From: Balneolaceae bacterium
Lineage (GTDB): Bacteria > Bacteroidota > Rhodothermia > Balneolales > Balneolaceae
Reading direction: 5' to 3'
Assembly (NCBI GenBank): GCA_007693745.1
Contig: REDA01000046.1
Coordinates: 1 to 64,000, forward strand
Length of the DNA stretch: 64,000 nt
Shown here piece by piece: positions 14,365 through 22,794 of the stretch (its first letter is position 1; every line of letters begins with the position of its first letter). The notes below the pieces were generated by a model, which worked only from the letters and a program-made list of their open reading frames with translations, ran no database searches and had not been told where the DNA came from. Made by a program: the position numbers and the translations under genes.

Positions 14365-14779
14365 GAAATATACTAACAACATTCTGTAAAATTGTAAAGG
14401 TCTGGCAGGCAATGAATCTAATCCATTTTTTCACTTCAATTCAATGATTGCTGAACCGGATGCTTTTAAAAACCAAAAATCTTTTAAAAGATCAAAGTGA
14501 AAGTAGATTTAATACCGTATCGGATTTGCCACAGGTGTTTTTTTAAATTTGCGATAACGAAGACATTGGTTATTGAAAAGTTTTAAAAAGTGCGCTGATC
14601 GAAAAAAATCACCAGTTTGGTATTTTTTAATCCTTTCCATTTACATTTTTTAACGAAGCGGGAACGTATGTTGTCATTTATTTTTTCAAATCGAACCAGG
14701 GTTCAATAAATTGAGCCCTTTAGATCCGGCAAGGAGTGACTTCTGCCGGTGTTCCCTTTCAATCAACCAAAACATTTTT
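14365..14779. other. Divergent intergenic region with a decayed repeat
   Basis: A 415-base AT-rich gap between the lipid kinase (minus) and the amidohydrolase (plus). It holds the worn repeat copy D (about 14462-14593). No gene is visible. Promoters for both directions should lie here, but none could be assigned with confidence. Confidence 0.5.
14462..14593 (+). repeat. Dispersed palindromic element, decayed copy D
   Basis: This aligns end to end with copy B but is much diverged. Shared landmarks in the same order and spacing are 'gcttttaaaaacc' for the left end, 'agatcaaagtgaaag', 'tttgccacaggtg', 'aaatttgcgataacgaagac' and 'aagttttaaaaagtgc' for the right end. Boundaries are approximate. 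The termini are still roughly complementary. Confidence 0.6.
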
Positions 14780-17752
14780 ATGATGGCTCAATTTATAACT
14801 GCCGCCAGTGGAAGAGTCTCTCTTTGGCTCTGTTTGCCGCTGATCCTGCTGCTCATATTGTCATTACCCATTAAATCCCCTGCCCAGACAGTGCCGGTAG
14901 AGGGGATGATGGAAAATCCGCCCTCTGTTCACGCATTCACCAATGCAACCATTGTTACGGAACCCGGCCGGATAATCAGGAACGGGACTCTTGTGATCCG
15001 AAAAGGTGTGATCGAAGCGGTAGGGCGCAATGTCTCTGTCCCGGCTGATGCCCGGATATGGGATCTTGATGGCAAAACGATCTATCCCGGGTTTATCGAC
15101 CCTTACAGCGAAGTGGGGCAGCAAAATCCCAGAGTGGAACTGGATCGGGGTACCCTCTCCTGGAATCCGCAGGTTCGTGCGCACCTGACGGCTTCTGCAG
15201 AGTATGAGGAAGAGGGAGATGGCCGTGCCGATCTCCGCAAGAACGGGTTCGTTGCTGCGCTTTCAGTACCATCACTGGGACTCTTTAAAGGAAGTACTTC
15301 CGTTTTTTCTCTTGGTGACGAGGCTGTATCCGACCGGCTGGTTCGGGACCAGGTGGCTCAGGCAGCTTCTCTGACAAGAAGCTGGGCATTTGGATTTGGC
15401 TATCCAACCTCCCCGATCGGTGCCATTGCACTGATTCGACAGACTCTTTATGATGCCGGGTGGTATGCTGCGGCTCACGAACGCTTTGAAAGCAATCCGG
15501 CCGGACTCCGAAGGCCTGAAGCCAATGCGCCGCTCGCAGCGCTCAGGCATGTAGTGCGCGATGGGATGCCGCTTCTCTTTGATGTTACCAGCGAAGAGGA
15601 GATTTTACGGGCTCTGCGTATCCGGGATGAGTTTTCAGTTACACCCTGGTTGCGGGGGAGCGGGCATGAATACAAGCTGCTGGACGTGCTTTCATCAGAA
15701 AGGGTGCCGCTGATTTTGCCGCTCTCTCTGCCGGCCACCCCGGATATCAAAACCCCTGAGGATGCACTCAATGAGGATCTTGCTGATCTGAGGCACTGGT
15801 ATCTGGCACCCGAAAATGCCGCCCGTGTGGCCGCTTCCGGCCTCCAATTCTCTTTTACCACGCATGGAGTGGATAACTCCACTCATGTGCTTCGCAACCT
15901 GAGAGAGATGGTTCATGCCGGTTTGCCGCAGGAGACTGCGCTGGCTGCACTCACAACAAATCCTGCCGCGCTGCTCGGTATCTCCCGGATGTATGGCACA
16001 CTTGAGCGGGGGAAATCGGCGGGATTTGTGGTGATGGACGGGGATCTGTTTGAAGATACATCGAAAATACTGTCGGTTTGGATCGACGGGAAGTACTACC
16101 GGGTTCAGAGCGAGCCATCGGTAGATCCAAAAGGCAGCTGGGAGATTACTTCATCCGGCGGATGGCTCGACGGCGACCTGAATGTGCGTGAAACGAGACC
16201 CGGCAGACTGGGTGGCACCTTTACGCATGGAGATACGGAAATCACTCTTGCCACTGTGTCATCGGAAGATCAGCCCCGCCGTTTCCGCGCCGATTTTGCC
16301 GGGGATGAACTGGAGTTAACCGGTATGGTGCGGCTTACAGCTTCCATTAGTGAGAACCGGATGCAGGGATGGGCTGAGGTGCCCGGCAGGGAACGTATCC
16401 AGTGGAGTGCAGTGAGAACAGCATCGGTCGAAACAGAGGAACGCGAGCCACGCGAGCGCCGTGCGCGTGATCTGCAACTCGCGGATATACGACCGGCCAT
16501 GGAGTATGGCCGTGAGCAGCAGCCGGAACAGCCGCGACATGTGCTGGTACGCAACGCCACTGTCTGGACCATGGGAAGTGAAGGTATTCTTGAAAATGCC
16601 GATCTTTTGGTGAGCGATGGTAAAGTGGCCGAAGTGGGAGAAAGTCTGCGTGCCCCGCGAGGCGCAGTTGTGATCAATGCAGAAGGCAGGCATGTTACTC
16701 CCGGCCTGATCGATGCCCACATTCACTCCGGTGTAAACGGAGTGAATGAAATTGGCAATGCCATTGTGCCGGAAGTGCGGATGGCAGATGTGCTTGATAT
16801 CAATAACATCTGGATGTACCGCCAGCTGGCCGGCGGGCTCACCACAGCGCATGTGATGCACGGGTCTGCAAACCCGATCGGCGGACAGAATGTGCATGTG
16901 AAGATGAAATGGGGTGCGCTCTCACATGAATTGGTTATAGACGATGCGCCCGGCACGGTAAAATTTGCTCTTGGAGAGAATCCCAAAAGAGTGGGGACTG
17001 ACCGCTATCCGGAAACCCGAATGGGGGTGGAACAGATCATCGCCGACCGGTTTCAGAACGCCCGCGACTATGAGGCGCGATGGAACGAGTGGAGAGCAAC
17101 AGGCACAGGCCTTCCGCCGCGCCGCGATCTGAGGATGGATGCCCTGGTGGGAATCCTGAATGAGGAGCTGCTGGTACAGTCGCACAGTTACCGGGCGGAC
17201 GAAATCTTGATGCTGATGCGGCTGGCAGAGGATTTTGATTTTCGTATTAAAGCGTTTCATCATGGAGTGGAAGCCTTCAAGGTGGCTCCGGAACTGGCAG
17301 AACATGGTGCGGGCGCCGTGGTGTGGTCAGACTGGGGAGCTTTCAAAATTGAAGCGTATGATAACACAACTTACAATGCCAGACTGCTGCACGAAGCAGG
17401 TGTACTTACCTCGCTCCATTCCGACAACAGTCAGATTGCTTCCAGGATGAACTGGGAGGCCGCCAAAATGGTAAGGGCTGGAATGAGTCCGGAGGATGCC
17501 ATGTCGCTCATCACCAGCACCACTGCAAAACTGTTGGGAATCGATCACCGGGTGGGTTCACTTGAACCAGGCAAGGATGGTGATTTCGTCATCTGGAGCG
17601 GGGATCCTCTCTCCACACGTACAAGAGCCGAGCAGACCTGGATAGAGGGAAGAAAATATTTTGATATGGACGAAGACATTGTGCTTCAGCAGGCGATTGC
17701 ACGGGAGCGTGAACTCCTGATCCAAAGAATCATGGAGGTGCAAAATGACTGA
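14780..17752 (+). CDS. Exported tandem-domain amidohydrolase
   Basis: About 990 residues from the ATG at 14780; the frame is open to a TTG at 14711, which would precede the signal peptide by 40 residues and is unlikely. A long hydrophobic signal (WLCLPLILLLILSLPIKSPA) is followed by two imidazolonepropionase-like amidohydrolase modules. The first, about residues 40-490, begins well ('NATIVTEPGRIIRNGTLVI') but its metal motif is 'YPGFIDPYSE' instead of PGxIDxHxH. The second, about 590-960, is intact: 'TPGLIDAHIHSG', 'FHHGVEAFK', 'TSLHSDNSQ', ending 'VGSLEPGKDGDFVIW'. So one catalytic and one non-catalytic module are likely, acting in the periplasm on an unknown cyclic amide or dipeptide. The second exported amidohydrolase-fold gene lies directly downstream and is probably co-transcribed. 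Confidence 0.85.
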   Translation: MMAQFITAASGRVSLWLCLPLILLLILSLPIKSPAQTVPVEGMMENPPSVHAFTNATIVTEPGRIIRNGTLVIRKGVIEAVGRNVSVPADARIWDLDGKTIYPGFIDPYSEVGQQNPRVELDRGTLSWNPQVRAHLTASAEYEEEGDGRADLRKNGFVAALSVPSLGLFKGSTSVFSLGDEAVSDRLVRDQVAQAASLTRSWAFGFGYPTSPIGAIALIRQTLYDAGWYAAAHERFESNPAGLRRPEANAPLAALRHVVRDGMPLLFDVTSEEEILRALRIRDEFSVTPWLRGSGHEYKLLDVLSSERVPLILPLSLPATPDIKTPEDALNEDLADLRHWYLAPENAARVAASGLQFSFTTHGVDNSTHVLRNLREMVHAGLPQETALAALTTNPAALLGISRMYGTLERGKSAGFVVMDGDLFEDTSKILSVWIDGKYYRVQSEPSVDPKGSWEITSSGGWLDGDLNVRETRPGRLGGTFTHGDTEITLATVSSEDQPRRFRADFAGDELELTGMVRLTASISENRMQGWAEVPGRERIQWSAVRTASVETEEREPRERRARDLQLADIRPAMEYGREQQPEQPRHVLVRNATVWTMGSEGILENADLLVSDGKVAEVGESLRAPRGAVVINAEGRHVTPGLIDAHIHSGVNGVNEIGNAIVPEVRMADVLDINNIWMYRQLAGGLTTAHVMHGSANPIGGQNVHVKMKWGALSHELVIDDAPGTVKFALGENPKRVGTDRYPETRMGVEQIIADRFQNARDYEARWNEWRATGTGLPPRRDLRMDALVGILNEELLVQSHSYRADEILMLMRLAEDFDFRIKAFHHGVEAFKVAPELAEHGAGAVVWSDWGAFKIEAYDNTTYNARLLHEAGVLTSLHSDNSQIASRMNWEAAKMVRAGMSPEDAMSLITSTTAKLLGIDHRVGSLEPGKDGDFVIWSGDPLSTRTRAEQTWIEGRKYFDMDEDIVLQQAIARERELLIQRIMEVQND

Positions 17753-17858
17753 GATCCTGAACTTTGCGGAGCCAAACCGAACCGTCGGCCACGACGATCC
17801 CATGAGCGAATCAATAAAATGCCGGCAGGGAAATCAAATCTTACAAACAGTTAAAACT

Positions 17859-19175
17859 ATGAAGAATCTTAACCGACGATCATTTATGCAGATAGTAAAA
17901 GCGGTACTTTCGATGCTGTTTTTTATCTGGACAGCAGTTCCTGCAGAAGCACAGACACCGGCTTCTGCGCAGAGCTCACCGATAGCAATTACAGGGGCTG
18001 CGATTCATACCGTTTCCGGGGATCTCATTGAAAACGGAACCCTGCTCTTCGAGGATGGAGTGATTACCGCTGTAGGTGTGGATATTGAATTGCCCGCAGG
18101 GACGGAAGTGGTGGATGCATCCGGAAAGGAGGTCTGGCCGGGTTTGATCGACGCCTACAGCCAGATGGGTATCTATGAGATCGGTGCTGTGAACCTGACC
18201 GTGGATGTAAATGAGCAGGGGAGTGTGAATCCCAATGTGATGGTGGAGCGGGCTTTTAATCCGGAAAGCCGTCATATTGCAGTGGCGAGGTCAGCCGGTA
18301 TCGTAGTTTCCGTGACAACACCCGGCGGCGGGCTGGTATCCGGTCAGTCGGCAGCGATGCTGATGGATGGCTGGGCGTGGGACAGCATGACTCTGAAGGC
18401 GGGGGTAGGAATGATTGTAAACTGGCCGAATGCGTCACAAAATAGTTACAGCAGAAACCTGGAAACACTTAGGGATCTCTTTGCAGAGGCGCGTGCCTAC
18501 CGGAAAGCCCGGCTGGCAGTGGAAGCGGGTGAAGCGGCCAGAATGGACATTGATATCCGGCTGGAGGCGATGATGAGGCTTTTTGATGGTACCATGCCGG
18601 TTGTGATCAGTGCCAATGAGGTACGCCAGATACAGGATGCTGTAACCTGGGCAGAGGAGGAGGGACTGCGAATGATACTTCTGGGCGGACGCGATGCACA
18701 TCTCGTGACAGAGCAGCTCCTTGCGCATTCAGTGCCGGTAATTCTGACCGAAGTGCTTACTTCACCCAGCCGCAACTGGGAATCATTTGATGCACGCTAT
18801 CGACTCCCCGCGCAGCTCTATGATGCTGGAGTACAGTTTGCGATAGCCGGTATCGCCAATCCGGCCAACGCAAACCGGTTGCCCTATGAAGCGGGTGCTG
18901 CCATGGCATTTGGGCTCTCCGAAGAGGCGGCTGTGCGGGCTGTGACCCTGGAACCGGCAAGGATTTTGGGCCTTGGTGACCGCCTCGGGTCACTGGAGCC
19001 GGGCAAAGATGCATCCTTTCTGATTACTGACGGGAATCCGATTGAGTATGCGACCCAGATTGAGCAGGTCTATATCCAGGGTCGCAAAAGTGATATGAAT
19101 GACATGCACCGGCAGTTTTATGAGCGTTACAGTGAAAAAGTGAGACAGATGCAGCAGGACTCTGCTCAGAGATAA
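17859..19175 (+). CDS. Exported amidohydrolase-fold protein lacking the HxH metal motif
   Basis: A 438-residue protein from the ATG at 17859, chosen because a signal peptide follows (KNLNRRSFMQIVK... AVPAEAQ). The same frame is open upstream to 17745, overlapping the end of the previous gene, so the two are at least translationally close. The composite-domain start is typical ('GAAIHTVSGDLIENGTLLFEDGVI'), as is the end ('GDRLGSLEPGKDASFLITDGNP'). At the place of the first metal motif it reads 'WPGLIDAYSQMG', that is Asp-x-Tyr where His-x-His is needed, the same type of change as in the first module of its neighbour. I infer a partner or scaffold of the upstream enzyme, or a divergent active site. 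The N-terminal double arginine could allow Tat export. Confidence 0.82.
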   Translation: MKNLNRRSFMQIVKAVLSMLFFIWTAVPAEAQTPASAQSSPIAITGAAIHTVSGDLIENGTLLFEDGVITAVGVDIELPAGTEVVDASGKEVWPGLIDAYSQMGIYEIGAVNLTVDVNEQGSVNPNVMVERAFNPESRHIAVARSAGIVVSVTTPGGGLVSGQSAAMLMDGWAWDSMTLKAGVGMIVNWPNASQNSYSRNLETLRDLFAEARAYRKARLAVEAGEAARMDIDIRLEAMMRLFDGTMPVVISANEVRQIQDAVTWAEEEGLRMILLGGRDAHLVTEQLLAHSVPVILTEVLTSPSRNWESFDARYRLPAQLYDAGVQFAIAGIANPANANRLPYEAGAAMAFGLSEEAAVRAVTLEPARILGLGDRLGSLEPGKDASFLITDGNPIEYATQIEQVYIQGRKSDMNDMHRQFYERYSEKVRQMQQDSAQR

Positions 19176-20524: not shown

Positions 20525-20549
20525 TGATACCGAAGCAGAAGAGGTATCA
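20525..20549 (-). other. Hairpin overlapping the stop codon of the second PII-like gene
   Basis: 'tgatacc' (20525-20531) and 'ggtatca' (20543-20549) form a 7-bp stem that includes the TGA stop of the upstream PII-like gene. It could stabilise the 3' end of the operon mRNA. No T run follows, so I do not call it a terminator. Confidence 0.3.
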
Positions 20550-20879
20550 CTCAATCAGATGGTTGATACCTGTTACGTTTTCCACGTCGAGAACAAATGC
20601 GATGCCGTGCCCCGGCTCATTCAATTTGGTGGCTTTCACGATGGCCTCCAGAACTTTTTCAGTTCTGTCTGAAGGTACCAGGGTAAGCACGATCTCCTTT
20701 TCCGGCTCAATTGCAAACGAGAAAAGCTTGGCTTTCTCGTGGATTCCTGACCCGCGACCGGAGATGATGGTACCACCCTCTGCACCGGCTTTAAGTGAGG
20801 AGTCGATCACCTCACCGCAGTGACCCTTGTTCACGATACTGATGATCAGTTGAAATTGAAGAACTTTGTTATTACTCAT
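20547..20879 (-). CDS. PII-like signalling protein (second copy)
   Basis: A 110-residue PII-fold protein. It shows the ferredoxin-like PII pattern: strand 1 'FQLIISIVNKG', then 'AGAEGGTIISGRGSG', a short T-loop, 'EKEIVLTLVP', 'VLEAIVKATKL' and the B-loop 'NEPGHGIAFVLDVENV'. Classical GlnB/GlnK carries Tyr51 on a T-loop of about 19 residues for uridylylation. Here the loop is shorter and has no Tyr, so modification of that type is unlikely and nucleotide binding is the probable signal. It is the last gene of a four-gene operon, 16 bases after its paralogue, behind two DUF1538 membrane proteins, which PII-like proteins presumably gate. Confidence 0.82.
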   Translation of the reverse strand: MSNNKVLQFQLIISIVNKGHCGEVIDSSLKAGAEGGTIISGRGSGIHEKAKLFSFAIEPEKEIVLTLVPSDRTEKVLEAIVKATKLNEPGHGIAFVLDVENVTGINHLIE

Positions 20880-20895
20880 GGCAGGATAGATTTGG

Positions 20896-21237
20896 TTAGA
20901 AATCGTTTTTCAGAAGGTGGGCGACCCCGCAAATCGTTTTGCTGTTCACAACAAATGCGATTCCGGTACCCGGTTTATGCAGATTTGCGCTTTTCTCGAC
21001 AGAGGCGATCACACTGTCAACCAGGTGATCCGGAATAACACTTAATATCACCGCTTTCTCAGTTTCCACTTTAAAGCCGAAAATACTTCCGGATTCAAAT
21101 TTACCGGTTCCTCTGCCAAGCAGCACTGTCCCACCGTCAGACCCTCCCTCCTTGCAGGCACGGATTACGGTTCTGGACAACTCCTTTTTAACGATAACTA
21201 TAAGGAGTTTAAACTGGTCACCTGCATTCTTAATCAT
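20896..21237 (-). CDS. PII-like signalling protein (first copy)
   Basis: A 113-residue PII-fold protein from the ATG at 21237, which overlaps the last 8 bases of the upstream DUF1538 gene (ATGATTAA). Pattern: 'FKLLIVIVKKE', 'GGSDGGTVLLGRGTG', a short loop without Tyr, 'TEKAVILSVIP', 'VIASVEKSANL' and B-loop 'HKPGTGIAFVVNS'. It is clearly related to the next gene, but the two differ throughout, which suggests a hetero-oligomer or two separate sensors. The start overlap implies translational coupling to the membrane protein, the same logic as glnK-amtB but with the regulator second. I infer direct control of the DUF1538 pair by an adenine nucleotide or other small ligand. Confidence 0.82.
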   Translation of the reverse strand: MIKNAGDQFKLLIVIVKKELSRTVIRACKEGGSDGGTVLLGRGTGKFESGSIFGFKVETEKAVILSVIPDHLVDSVIASVEKSANLHKPGTGIAFVVNSKTICGVAHLLKNDF

Positions 21238-21961
21238 ACGATCTGGATTCGTTGTATTTAAAAATAAGTCCAAGTATAAGAACTGTCAGAATCGGAGCGA
21301 GTGCCACAAGTGCGATCATGCCAAATCCGTCCAGCAGAGGATCCCGACCCTCTAAAGTCTCTGAAAACCCGAGTGCAATTGCAAGGATAAACGTGACGGT
21401 CATAGGTCCGGTAGCCACCCCTCCTGCGTCAAATGCGATGGAGGTAAATGTTTCCGTTGAAAAAAGCGCCATTGTGAGGGCAAGAAAGTAGCCGGGTCCG
21501 ATAAAATACCAAAGTGGGATTCCATAGATGATTCTGGCCATAGCCAGTGCAATGGAAATGGCAACACCGATGGAGAGTGTATAAAGCAGTAATCGGGCGG
21601 GGATATATCCGCTTGTCACCTTATCCACTTCCAGGTTGAGAACCCTTACGGCGGGTTCTGCAAAGGTGGCGACAAAACCGAGCAGAAAACCCACCGGAAT
21701 GAGTATCCACTGATTCTCCCAATCCCCAACAATTTCCCCGATTTCGCGTCCTACCGGCAGGAATCCAACGTGAACACCCTGCAGAAAGAGAGCCAGTCCG
21801 ATGAACGTGAAGAGGATCCCCATAATGATGCCCTTGACCCGTTTCCAGGGTAATTTGAGCATAAAGAGCTGAAAAAAAAGAAAAAAGATCACAAGCGGAA
21901 TCAAAGCCATTGCCACTTCCGTGAGAACGTGATCAAAACCGTAAAAAATCTTAACGTCCAT
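21230..21961 (-). CDS. DUF1538 membrane protein, second subunit
   Basis: A 243-residue integral membrane protein with about six or seven hydrophobic helices. The DUF1538 signatures are present: 'GVHVGFLPVGREIG', 'GFVATFAEPAVRVL', 'DAGGVATGPMTVTFILAIALG' and 'DGFGMIALVALAPIL'. A paired arrangement of DUF1538 proteins (UmpA and UmpB) in a Halomonas species has been described as a two-component Na+(Li+,K+)/H+ antiporter; I cite this from memory. It lies 3 bases after the first DUF1538 gene and overlaps the following PII-like gene by 8 bases, so the four genes are one transcript. The C-terminus ends in a short basic/polar tail facing the cytoplasm by inference. Confidence 0.85.
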   Translation of the reverse strand: MDVKIFYGFDHVLTEVAMALIPLVIFFLFFQLFMLKLPWKRVKGIIMGILFTFIGLALFLQGVHVGFLPVGREIGEIVGDWENQWILIPVGFLLGFVATFAEPAVRVLNLEVDKVTSGYIPARLLLYTLSIGVAISIALAMARIIYGIPLWYFIGPGYFLALTMALFSTETFTSIAFDAGGVATGPMTVTFILAIALGFSETLEGRDPLLDGFGMIALVALAPILTVLILGLIFKYNESRSYD

Positions 21962-21964
21962 CTC

Positions 21965-22663
21965 TTATCCGTACATGATTCCAAGTATGAGCACGGCGAT
22001 CAGTGGCCCGATGGAGGCGAGGGCAACCAGCCCGAACCCATCCGCAGCTTTATCGTCAGTCCGTAAAACAGTGGCGATCCCGATCCCGAATGCGAGAATA
22101 AAGGGCACGGCCATCGGGCCGGTAGTGACGCCCCCCGCATCGAAAGAAACAGGAACGAATTCAGCGGGCATCCATGGGGAGAGAGCCAGGCCGAAGACGA
22201 TCGAATAGCCTGCGATAAGAATCCATTTAATCGAGATTTTCAGTATGATACGGGCCATGGAGAGGGCCACAAAAATACCGAGGCCGAGAGCCACAGGAAA
22301 GATGAGGGTCCATTTGCCAATCGCACCATCAGATACCTGATCGACGTATTCGGAAAGCACATGAACATCCGGTTCGGCAACGGTGACCACAAACCCGAGA
22401 ATAAAACTGAAAAGCAGGATCATCCACACTTTCCCTGTTTTAGGAAGGGCAGACCCGATCATTTCCCCCACAGGCAACAATCCGAAATGAACCCCAATGA
22501 GAAAAAAAACGAGCCCGGCAGAAACAAAAACCACGCCGATTAAAAACTGAATCACGGATTGAGGAGGCAGCCAGATCAGTGTGTACTGCAGAACGAGAAC
22601 CAGCACTGTGATCGGCAGTATTGCATAAATAACTTCTTCTATGGTTTCCCGTATGGATTTCAT
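21965..22663 (-). CDS. DUF1538 membrane protein, first subunit
   Basis: A 232-residue paralogue of the next gene and the first gene of the operon. It has the same landmarks in the same order: 'GVHFGLLPVGEMIG', 'GFVVTVAEPDVHVLSEYV', 'DAGGVTTGPMAVPFILAFGIG' and 'DGFGLVALASIGPL'. The conserved acidic 'AEP' and the 'FDAGG.TTGP' turn lie in or next to membrane helices and are the best candidates for ion-binding sites. I infer that it forms a heterodimer with the second subunit, acting as a cation/proton antiporter in the inner membrane. Characterised relatives (UmpAB) support this, but ion specificity and the role of the attached PII pair are open. Confidence 0.85.
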   Translation of the reverse strand: MKSIRETIEEVIYAILPITVLVLVLQYTLIWLPPQSVIQFLIGVVFVSAGLVFFLIGVHFGLLPVGEMIGSALPKTGKVWMILLFSFILGFVVTVAEPDVHVLSEYVDQVSDGAIGKWTLIFPVALGLGIFVALSMARIILKISIKWILIAGYSIVFGLALSPWMPAEFVPVSFDAGGVTTGPMAVPFILAFGIGIATVLRTDDKAADGFGLVALASIGPLIAVLILGIMYG

Positions 22664-22722
22664 CAGCTGAAAGCAGTGCCGGTTAAGTTCCGTTGATGGG
22701 AGAAAATAGGGAATCTCTCAGT

Positions 22723-22762
22723 AAAAAAAGAACCCCGGCGACGGTATTCCCGGCCGGGGTTC
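22723..22762 (-). terminator. Intrinsic terminator of pckG
   Basis: On the minus strand a perfect 10-bp stem (GAACCCCGGC with GCCGGGGTTC; arms 22753-22762 and 22730-22739) is followed by seven Ts (22729-22723). It lies 33 bases past the pckG stop and separates pckG from the DUF1538 operon on the same strand. Confidence 0.9.
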
Positions 22763-22794
22763 GGTTTTCTTTTGGAAGTGTGTGCTGCTTCTCT

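Follow-up and report, generated by a model that had tools for sequence, protein, structure and literature searches.

A DUF1538-PII gene cassette in a Balneolaceae bacterium as a candidate PII-gated transporter

The four-gene locus

The window analysed in this study is a stretch of 64,000 nucleotides corresponding to positions 1 to 64,000 of contig REDA01000046.1 from a Balneolaceae bacterium. Four genes follow one another 5' to 3' on its minus strand, two of which code for membrane proteins of the DUF1538 family (D1 and D2) and two for PII-like proteins (PII-a and PII-b). The intergenic distances are 3 bases for D1/D2, -8 for D2/PII-a and 16 for PII-a/PII-b. An earlier note on this DNA had described such a one-strand group of two DUF1538 and two PII genes, and its coordinates are exact; both the open reading frames and the Pfam profiles confirm the arrangement. 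The features of the locus are as follows.

21965 to 22663, minus strand: DUF1538-1 (D1), 232 amino acids, a half with seven transmembrane spans and a predicted N-terminus inside; PF07556, E 8.5e-74; loop charge bias +8; member of the D1 clade in the tree
21230 to 21961, minus strand: DUF1538-2 (D2), 243 amino acids, a seven-span half with a predicted N-terminus outside and C-terminus inside; PF07556, E 8.1e-77; loop charge bias -5; member of the D2 clade
20896 to 21237, minus strand: PII-a, 113 amino acids from an ATG that gives an 8-base overlap with the end of D2, a divergent PII partner; PF00543, E 2.1e-7; T-loop weakly conserved across the family
20547 to 20879, minus strand: PII-b, 110 amino acids, a conserved PII; PF00543, E 2e-9; T-loop motif GRGxGIHExxKLFxxxIEPEKE
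22720 to 22772, minus strand: GC-rich inverted repeat (CCCCGG..CCGGGG) followed by a run of T nucleotides, read directly from the sequence and located between the PEP carboxykinase (PEPCK) gene and D1

D1 and D2 are 39% identical and score 257.7 and 247.8 bits against a Pfam gathering score of 22.6 for PF07556. PII-a and PII-b reach 31.7 and 38.1 bits, respectively, where the gathering cut-off for PF00543 is 25. An alternative TTG start at position 21273 would lengthen PII-a to 125 amino acids.

Upstream of D1, and on its strand, lies a gene that codes by sequence for PEPCK. The inverted repeat is probably the terminator of this gene and would set it apart from the four-gene operon. A consensus scan of the same interval picked up no more than a shorter stem, on the plus strand, and its count of promoters and terminators at the locus was not above chance. 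Elsewhere in the window, two adjoining amidohydrolase-like ORFs of 1013 and 476 amino acids, with an 8-base overlap, occupy positions 14711-19175 of the plus strand.

The assembly is 95% complete and holds no DUF1538 or PII genes beyond these two pairs. An amtB gene lies on another contig of the same genome (L235, G000:C90:1035-2204), and despite its presence no GlnK-type PII was found in the assembly.

DUF1538 and PII are linked across phyla

Our survey covered the phylum of this bacterium, Bacillota, Thermoplasmatota and plasmid records. DUF1538 genes were sampled without regard to PII, and a second sampling started from relatives of PII-b. In the bacterium's own phylum, DUF1538 exceeds the cut-off in nine of 247 genomes, this one included, and all of them, thus 8/8 of the others, carry an adjoining PII gene. 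Among Bacillota, 101 of 299 genomes encode DUF1538, and when loci from all 101 were inspected a PII gene was directly downstream in 97 (a first reading had given linked PII at 90 of 91 testable loci). Two of the four exceptions are contig edges (G349 and G520), and a third (G322) is a degraded copy interrupted by six in-frame stops. In the fourth, G484, a tandem PII of the DUF1538 type is encoded apart from its DUF1538 gene (L240, C77); this is the sole testable Bacillota locus of the first reading without a linked PII. Roughly one in three of the Bacillota species sampled carries the cassette.

In Thermoplasmatota, PII is beside DUF1538 at eight of 11 loci, and the genomes G579, G685 and G752 carry no PII of the DUF1538 type. 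In these three, a fused DUF1538 gene (L156, L160 and L162) is followed directly by a gene resembling a hydrogenase maturation protease, and related genomes retain PII. On plasmids, including those of Alphaproteobacteria, PII accompanies DUF1538 in 7/7 records (from Methylocystis, Chelativorans and several Clostridia). Where these records are annotated, the linked gene is named 'P-II family nitrogen regulator', a call that is independent of the profile used here. The sampling from the other side gave the same picture, since all 65 relatives of PII-b identified among genome contigs, which come from Balneolales, Bacilli, Syntrophomonadaceae, other Clostridia and one archaeal MAG, are encoded directly 3' of DUF1538. 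The PII start codon often overlaps the end of the DUF1538 gene and the median gap is below zero, with overlaps that are upper bounds because ORF starts were taken as the longest possible.

Genomes hold few PII genes among some thousands of genes, and so the probability of chance adjacency at the observed rate is negligible. Recurrence in several phyla likewise places the four-gene arrangement well outside what chance would produce. The link between DUF1538 and PII is almost universal in the sampled genomes. We sought a clue to the substrate in the flanking genes, which are lineage-specific and include no conserved third neighbour across lineages; thus, the DUF1538-PII cassette is the conserved unit. 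The earlier note had proposed a self-contained transporter-plus-PII cassette, to be checked by surveying other DUF1538 loci and abandoned if no association existed outside this lineage. The association is conserved far beyond Balneolaceae, and this part of the proposal is upheld.

Two DUF1538-DUF1538-PII cassettes are arranged in tandem on one contig (L176 and L184). A search of viral contigs for DUF1538 returned only one, in which the gene is at the contig end (L253, IMGVR_UViG_3300031922_000051), and this region is probably host flank.

Gene fusions

With D for a DUF1538 half, P for a PII domain and DD or PP for fused pairs, the forms seen are D-D-PP, DD-PP, D-D-P-P (this locus), D-D-P, DD-P, DD-P-P and D-P. 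The fusions of D and of P vary independently, yet D and P stay together, and none of the surveyed loci showed an ORF in which DUF1538 and PII are joined. The 'two-protein regulator' of the earlier note corresponds to one form of several, as PII is a fused tandem in most relatives and a single protein in some. Loci of eleven Bacillota genomes have one complete DUF1538 gene and one PII gene without a neighbouring second DUF1538, and in most of these genomes that DUF1538 is the only one. We refer to their products as one-gene proteins.

Opposite charge bias in the DUF1538 halves

Charge bias was calculated as the number of Lys and Arg residues in the N-terminus and loops L2, L4 and L6 minus the number in L1, L3, L5 and the C-terminus. 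Its mean is +6.0 for D1 (sd 1.9, n=155), -6.0 for D2 (sd 1.8, n=155) and +1.2 for the one-gene proteins (sd 1.7, n=11). A positive D1 accompanies a negative D2 at 153 of 154 loci, and the remaining one, L223, has an incompletely filled D1 row. As a yardstick, antiparallel heterodimers have biases of +6/+7 and -6/-7, and dual-topology proteins fall between -2 and +1 (PMC3962082, a review). The DUF1538 family therefore combines the features expected of antiparallel two-domain proteins, namely partners of opposite bias, one-gene proteins near zero and fused forms in many loci. The opposite loop charges of D1 and D2 appear to be the signature of an antiparallel heterodimer, with bias serving as a predictor of topology.

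A different reading holds that D1 and D2 share one orientation and that the opposite biases are an adaptation of the loops for binding PII on one side. The topologies of D1 and D2 given here are predictions, which leaves some room for this reading. We regard it as highly improbable, however, because the bias is nearly symmetric and extends over many loops and both termini at almost every locus, whereas acidic residues show only a small, opposite difference. Moreover, fusions join one half to the other by a short linker and therefore require an inversion, if each half has seven spans.

The antiparallel arrangement is also in keeping with the family tree. Among 91 DUF1538 domains, D1 and D2 form separate and strongly supported groups that reflect an ancient duplication, and the one-gene proteins are located between them. 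Both halves of a UmpAB-like fused protein from G087 also fall between the groups, on long branches. The simplest history suggested by the tree starts with a one-gene, dual-topology ancestor, continues with an ancient duplication in which opposite orientations became fixed, and ends with later fusions. A history that includes loss keeps a small probability, as the tree does not fix the root.

An AlphaFold2 model of a fused Balneolales pair (L018; pLDDT 86.9, pTM 0.87) can be read as seven spans per half. Two spans in each half are broken, at an AEP motif and at an FDAGGVTTGP motif. The acidic residues at these breaks, E97 (AEP) and D175 (FDAGG) in D1 numbering, are 91-100% conserved in D1, D2 and the one-gene forms, with mostly conservative replacements otherwise. 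They lie in the broken helices and are the likely cation/proton site. In a Foldseek search of this model against the PDB, no match reached E <0.001 and the 50 best included none with a TM-score >0.2, and profile and sequence searches of DUF1538 against the PDB revealed no relative. One PDB match of DUF1538, to an alcohol dehydrogenase, was read as chance.

PII proteins without the canonical ligand residues

When aligned with Escherichia coli GlnB, the T-loops of PII-a and PII-b are about 5-6 residues shorter and the position of Tyr51, the uridylylated residue, is deleted. The statement in the earlier note that both proteins have short T-loops without this Tyr is borne out. Three GlnB residues that hold the ATP phosphates are also replaced across the whole family of DUF1538-type PII proteins: K90 by I, R101 by G and R103 by non-basic residues. 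In addition, Q39 of GlnB is mostly His in PII-b, and K58 is retained as K61 within the EPEKE motif. Given these losses and scores of 13-15 bits versus 202 for PRK10858, the proteins fall outside canonical GlnB/GlnK. A canonical ATP/2-oxoglutarate mode is unlikely for them, judging from their residues. The description 'nucleotide-gated' in the earlier note loses its support, because the T-loops are short and Tyr51, K90, R101 and R103 are gone.

The two PII proteins differ in how their T-loops have been conserved. In PII-b the T-loop is conserved above the rest of the protein (0.77 vs 0.61), and in PII-a it is not (0.47 vs 0.48). PII-b consequently looks like the sensing and contacting subunit, with PII-a a diverged, degenerate partner. 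The PII tree is poorly resolved, has long branches and yields no time of origin for PII-a. The model of a tandem homologue from Balneolales (L015) comprises two PII domains (pLDDT 85.9), and GlnK structures are among its matches.

The PII pair might serve functions other than the transporter, such as nitrogen metabolism or AmtB, and be co-transcribed with DUF1538 merely to report on transport activity or for reasons of dosage. It is common for canonical PII proteins to have more than one target, and this genome has AmtB and no other PII. We nevertheless consider such a role unlikely as the main explanation, since this type of PII tracks DUF1538, not AmtB, over several phyla, its PII-b-like members invariably adjoin DUF1538 in our second sampling, and the residues for canonical ligands and modification have been lost. 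A dedicated sensor of the transporter remains our preferred reading, and PII-a/PII-b might act on AmtB as well.

UmpAB and the transported ion

UmpAB from Halomonas zhaodongensis is a DUF1538 pair that gives pH-dependent Na+(Li+,K+)/H+ antiport in E. coli, and both subunits are required and co-precipitate (PMC5484666). Like D1 and D2, the UmpAB subunits are two homologous proteins of seven spans from the same Pfam family, and they work only together. The cloned insert was reported with four ORFs, none of them PII, and the function comes from one laboratory's complementation screen (PMC5484666). The paper has no mention of PII, topology or dual orientation (PMC5484666). D1 and D2 differ from UmpAB in that they score 110-118 bits where the NCBIfam equivalog cut-offs are 490 and 500 (NF041627 and NF041628). 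The nearest UmpAB-like protein in our survey (G087, L077) scores 218 bits, branches with the one-gene forms and not with the D1 or D2 clade, and has PII domains downstream. This locus, from the bacterium's own phylum (L077/L086, C52), encodes a fused DUF1538 protein of 626 amino acids followed by a 380-amino acid protein with three PII-like domains.

The assignment of a monovalent ion, made by analogy with UmpAB, is of moderate confidence because UmpAB is distant from D1 and D2 and its activity is one laboratory's result. The 'ion antiporter' of the earlier note thus keeps a precedent in the same Pfam family and rests on that distant relative. DUF1538 pairs could instead move a substrate other than Na+ or K+ (e.g. 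an organic anion, ammonium or bicarbonate), with the antiport of UmpAB a side activity and PII still the gate. Only the distant UmpAB has been assayed, DUF1538 is frequent among gut and anaerobic Clostridia and also among halophiles, and no fold match to known antiporters was obtained. This is a serious alternative that we nonetheless judge less likely than not, given the activity of UmpAB, the many close relatives that are halophiles or alkaliphiles by name, and a machine-learning study of growth pH optima that lists DUF1538 among its key families (PMC13255231).

That study has no mention of PII (PMC13255231). Papers on cable bacteria cite UmpAB homologues, and the one that was searched for PII does not mention it. 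Our search of openly available papers found none linking DUF1538 to PII, and the titles and abstracts of work on PII proteins with H+ antiporters contain nothing on DUF1538-PII.

Proposed mechanism

We think it likely, with some reserve, that the four genes constitute one transport cassette in which an antiparallel D1-D2 transporter is gated by its own PII-a/PII-b sensor. In this model, D1 and D2 would be inserted in opposite orientations to form an antiparallel heterodimer, and the two broken helices of each half would place the near-invariant E97 and D175 at a cation or proton site. Transport would probably be monovalent cation/H+ antiport, by homology with UmpAB. We infer a physical contact between the two protein families, whereby PII-b would bind a cytosolic ligand and offer the conserved T-loop to the transporter on its cytoplasmic side as an on/off switch, analogous to the action of GlnK on AmtB and SbtB on SbtA. 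The degenerate PII-a would complete this assembly as a partner. Transport itself does not require PII, because three Thermoplasmatota genomes have no such PII and UmpAB was active from an insert without it, and this dispensability fits the role of a regulator.

More tentatively, and with doubt slightly outweighing belief, these cassettes could represent a widespread and unrecognised class of PII-gated transporter. Its members would combine an antiparallel pump of 7+7 spans and unsolved fold with a PII pair or tandem that has no ATP/2-oxoglutarate site and senses a new ligand via the GIHE...EPEKE T-loop, the asymmetric PII-a/PII-b acting on the asymmetric D1/D2. Current annotation labels the PII genes 'nitrogen regulator', and DUF1538 is nearly uncharacterised. 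If the model is correct, a large number of PII proteins are wrongly described at present, and the cassette offers a testable case of PII signalling that is tied to ion or pH balance and not to nitrogen.

Comparison with known systems

DUF1538 and PII exhibit the conserved linkage that characterizes a PII-gated transporter such as AmtB-GlnK. Both systems comprise a membrane transporter and a cotranscribed PII that is able, or in our case proposed, to gate it from the cytoplasm. The transporters are unrelated, however, and PII-a and PII-b have lost the long T-loop, the Tyr51 and the ATP/2-oxoglutarate site that are present in GlnK. SbtA-SbtB offers another parallel, in which a bicarbonate transporter has a dedicated PII-like regulator with a non-canonical ligand, but SbtA is not a DUF1538 protein. 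SbtB is a weak profile match to the PII proteins described here (E about 0.1).

For the membrane half, the closest parallels are SMR, Fluc/CrcB and DUF606, for which we know of no PII partner. These families resemble DUF1538 in having one-gene forms of neutral bias, two-gene forms of opposite bias and fused forms whose bias is opposite internally. Their tabulated examples have 3-6 spans per unit (PMC3962082), in contrast to seven spans and a PII partner here. The opposite loop charges of DUF1538 partners and the near-zero bias of the one-gene forms are new in this work. If our interpretation is correct, DUF1538 joins the few families that keep one-gene dual-topology, two-gene antiparallel and fused forms, and it does so with seven spans per unit.
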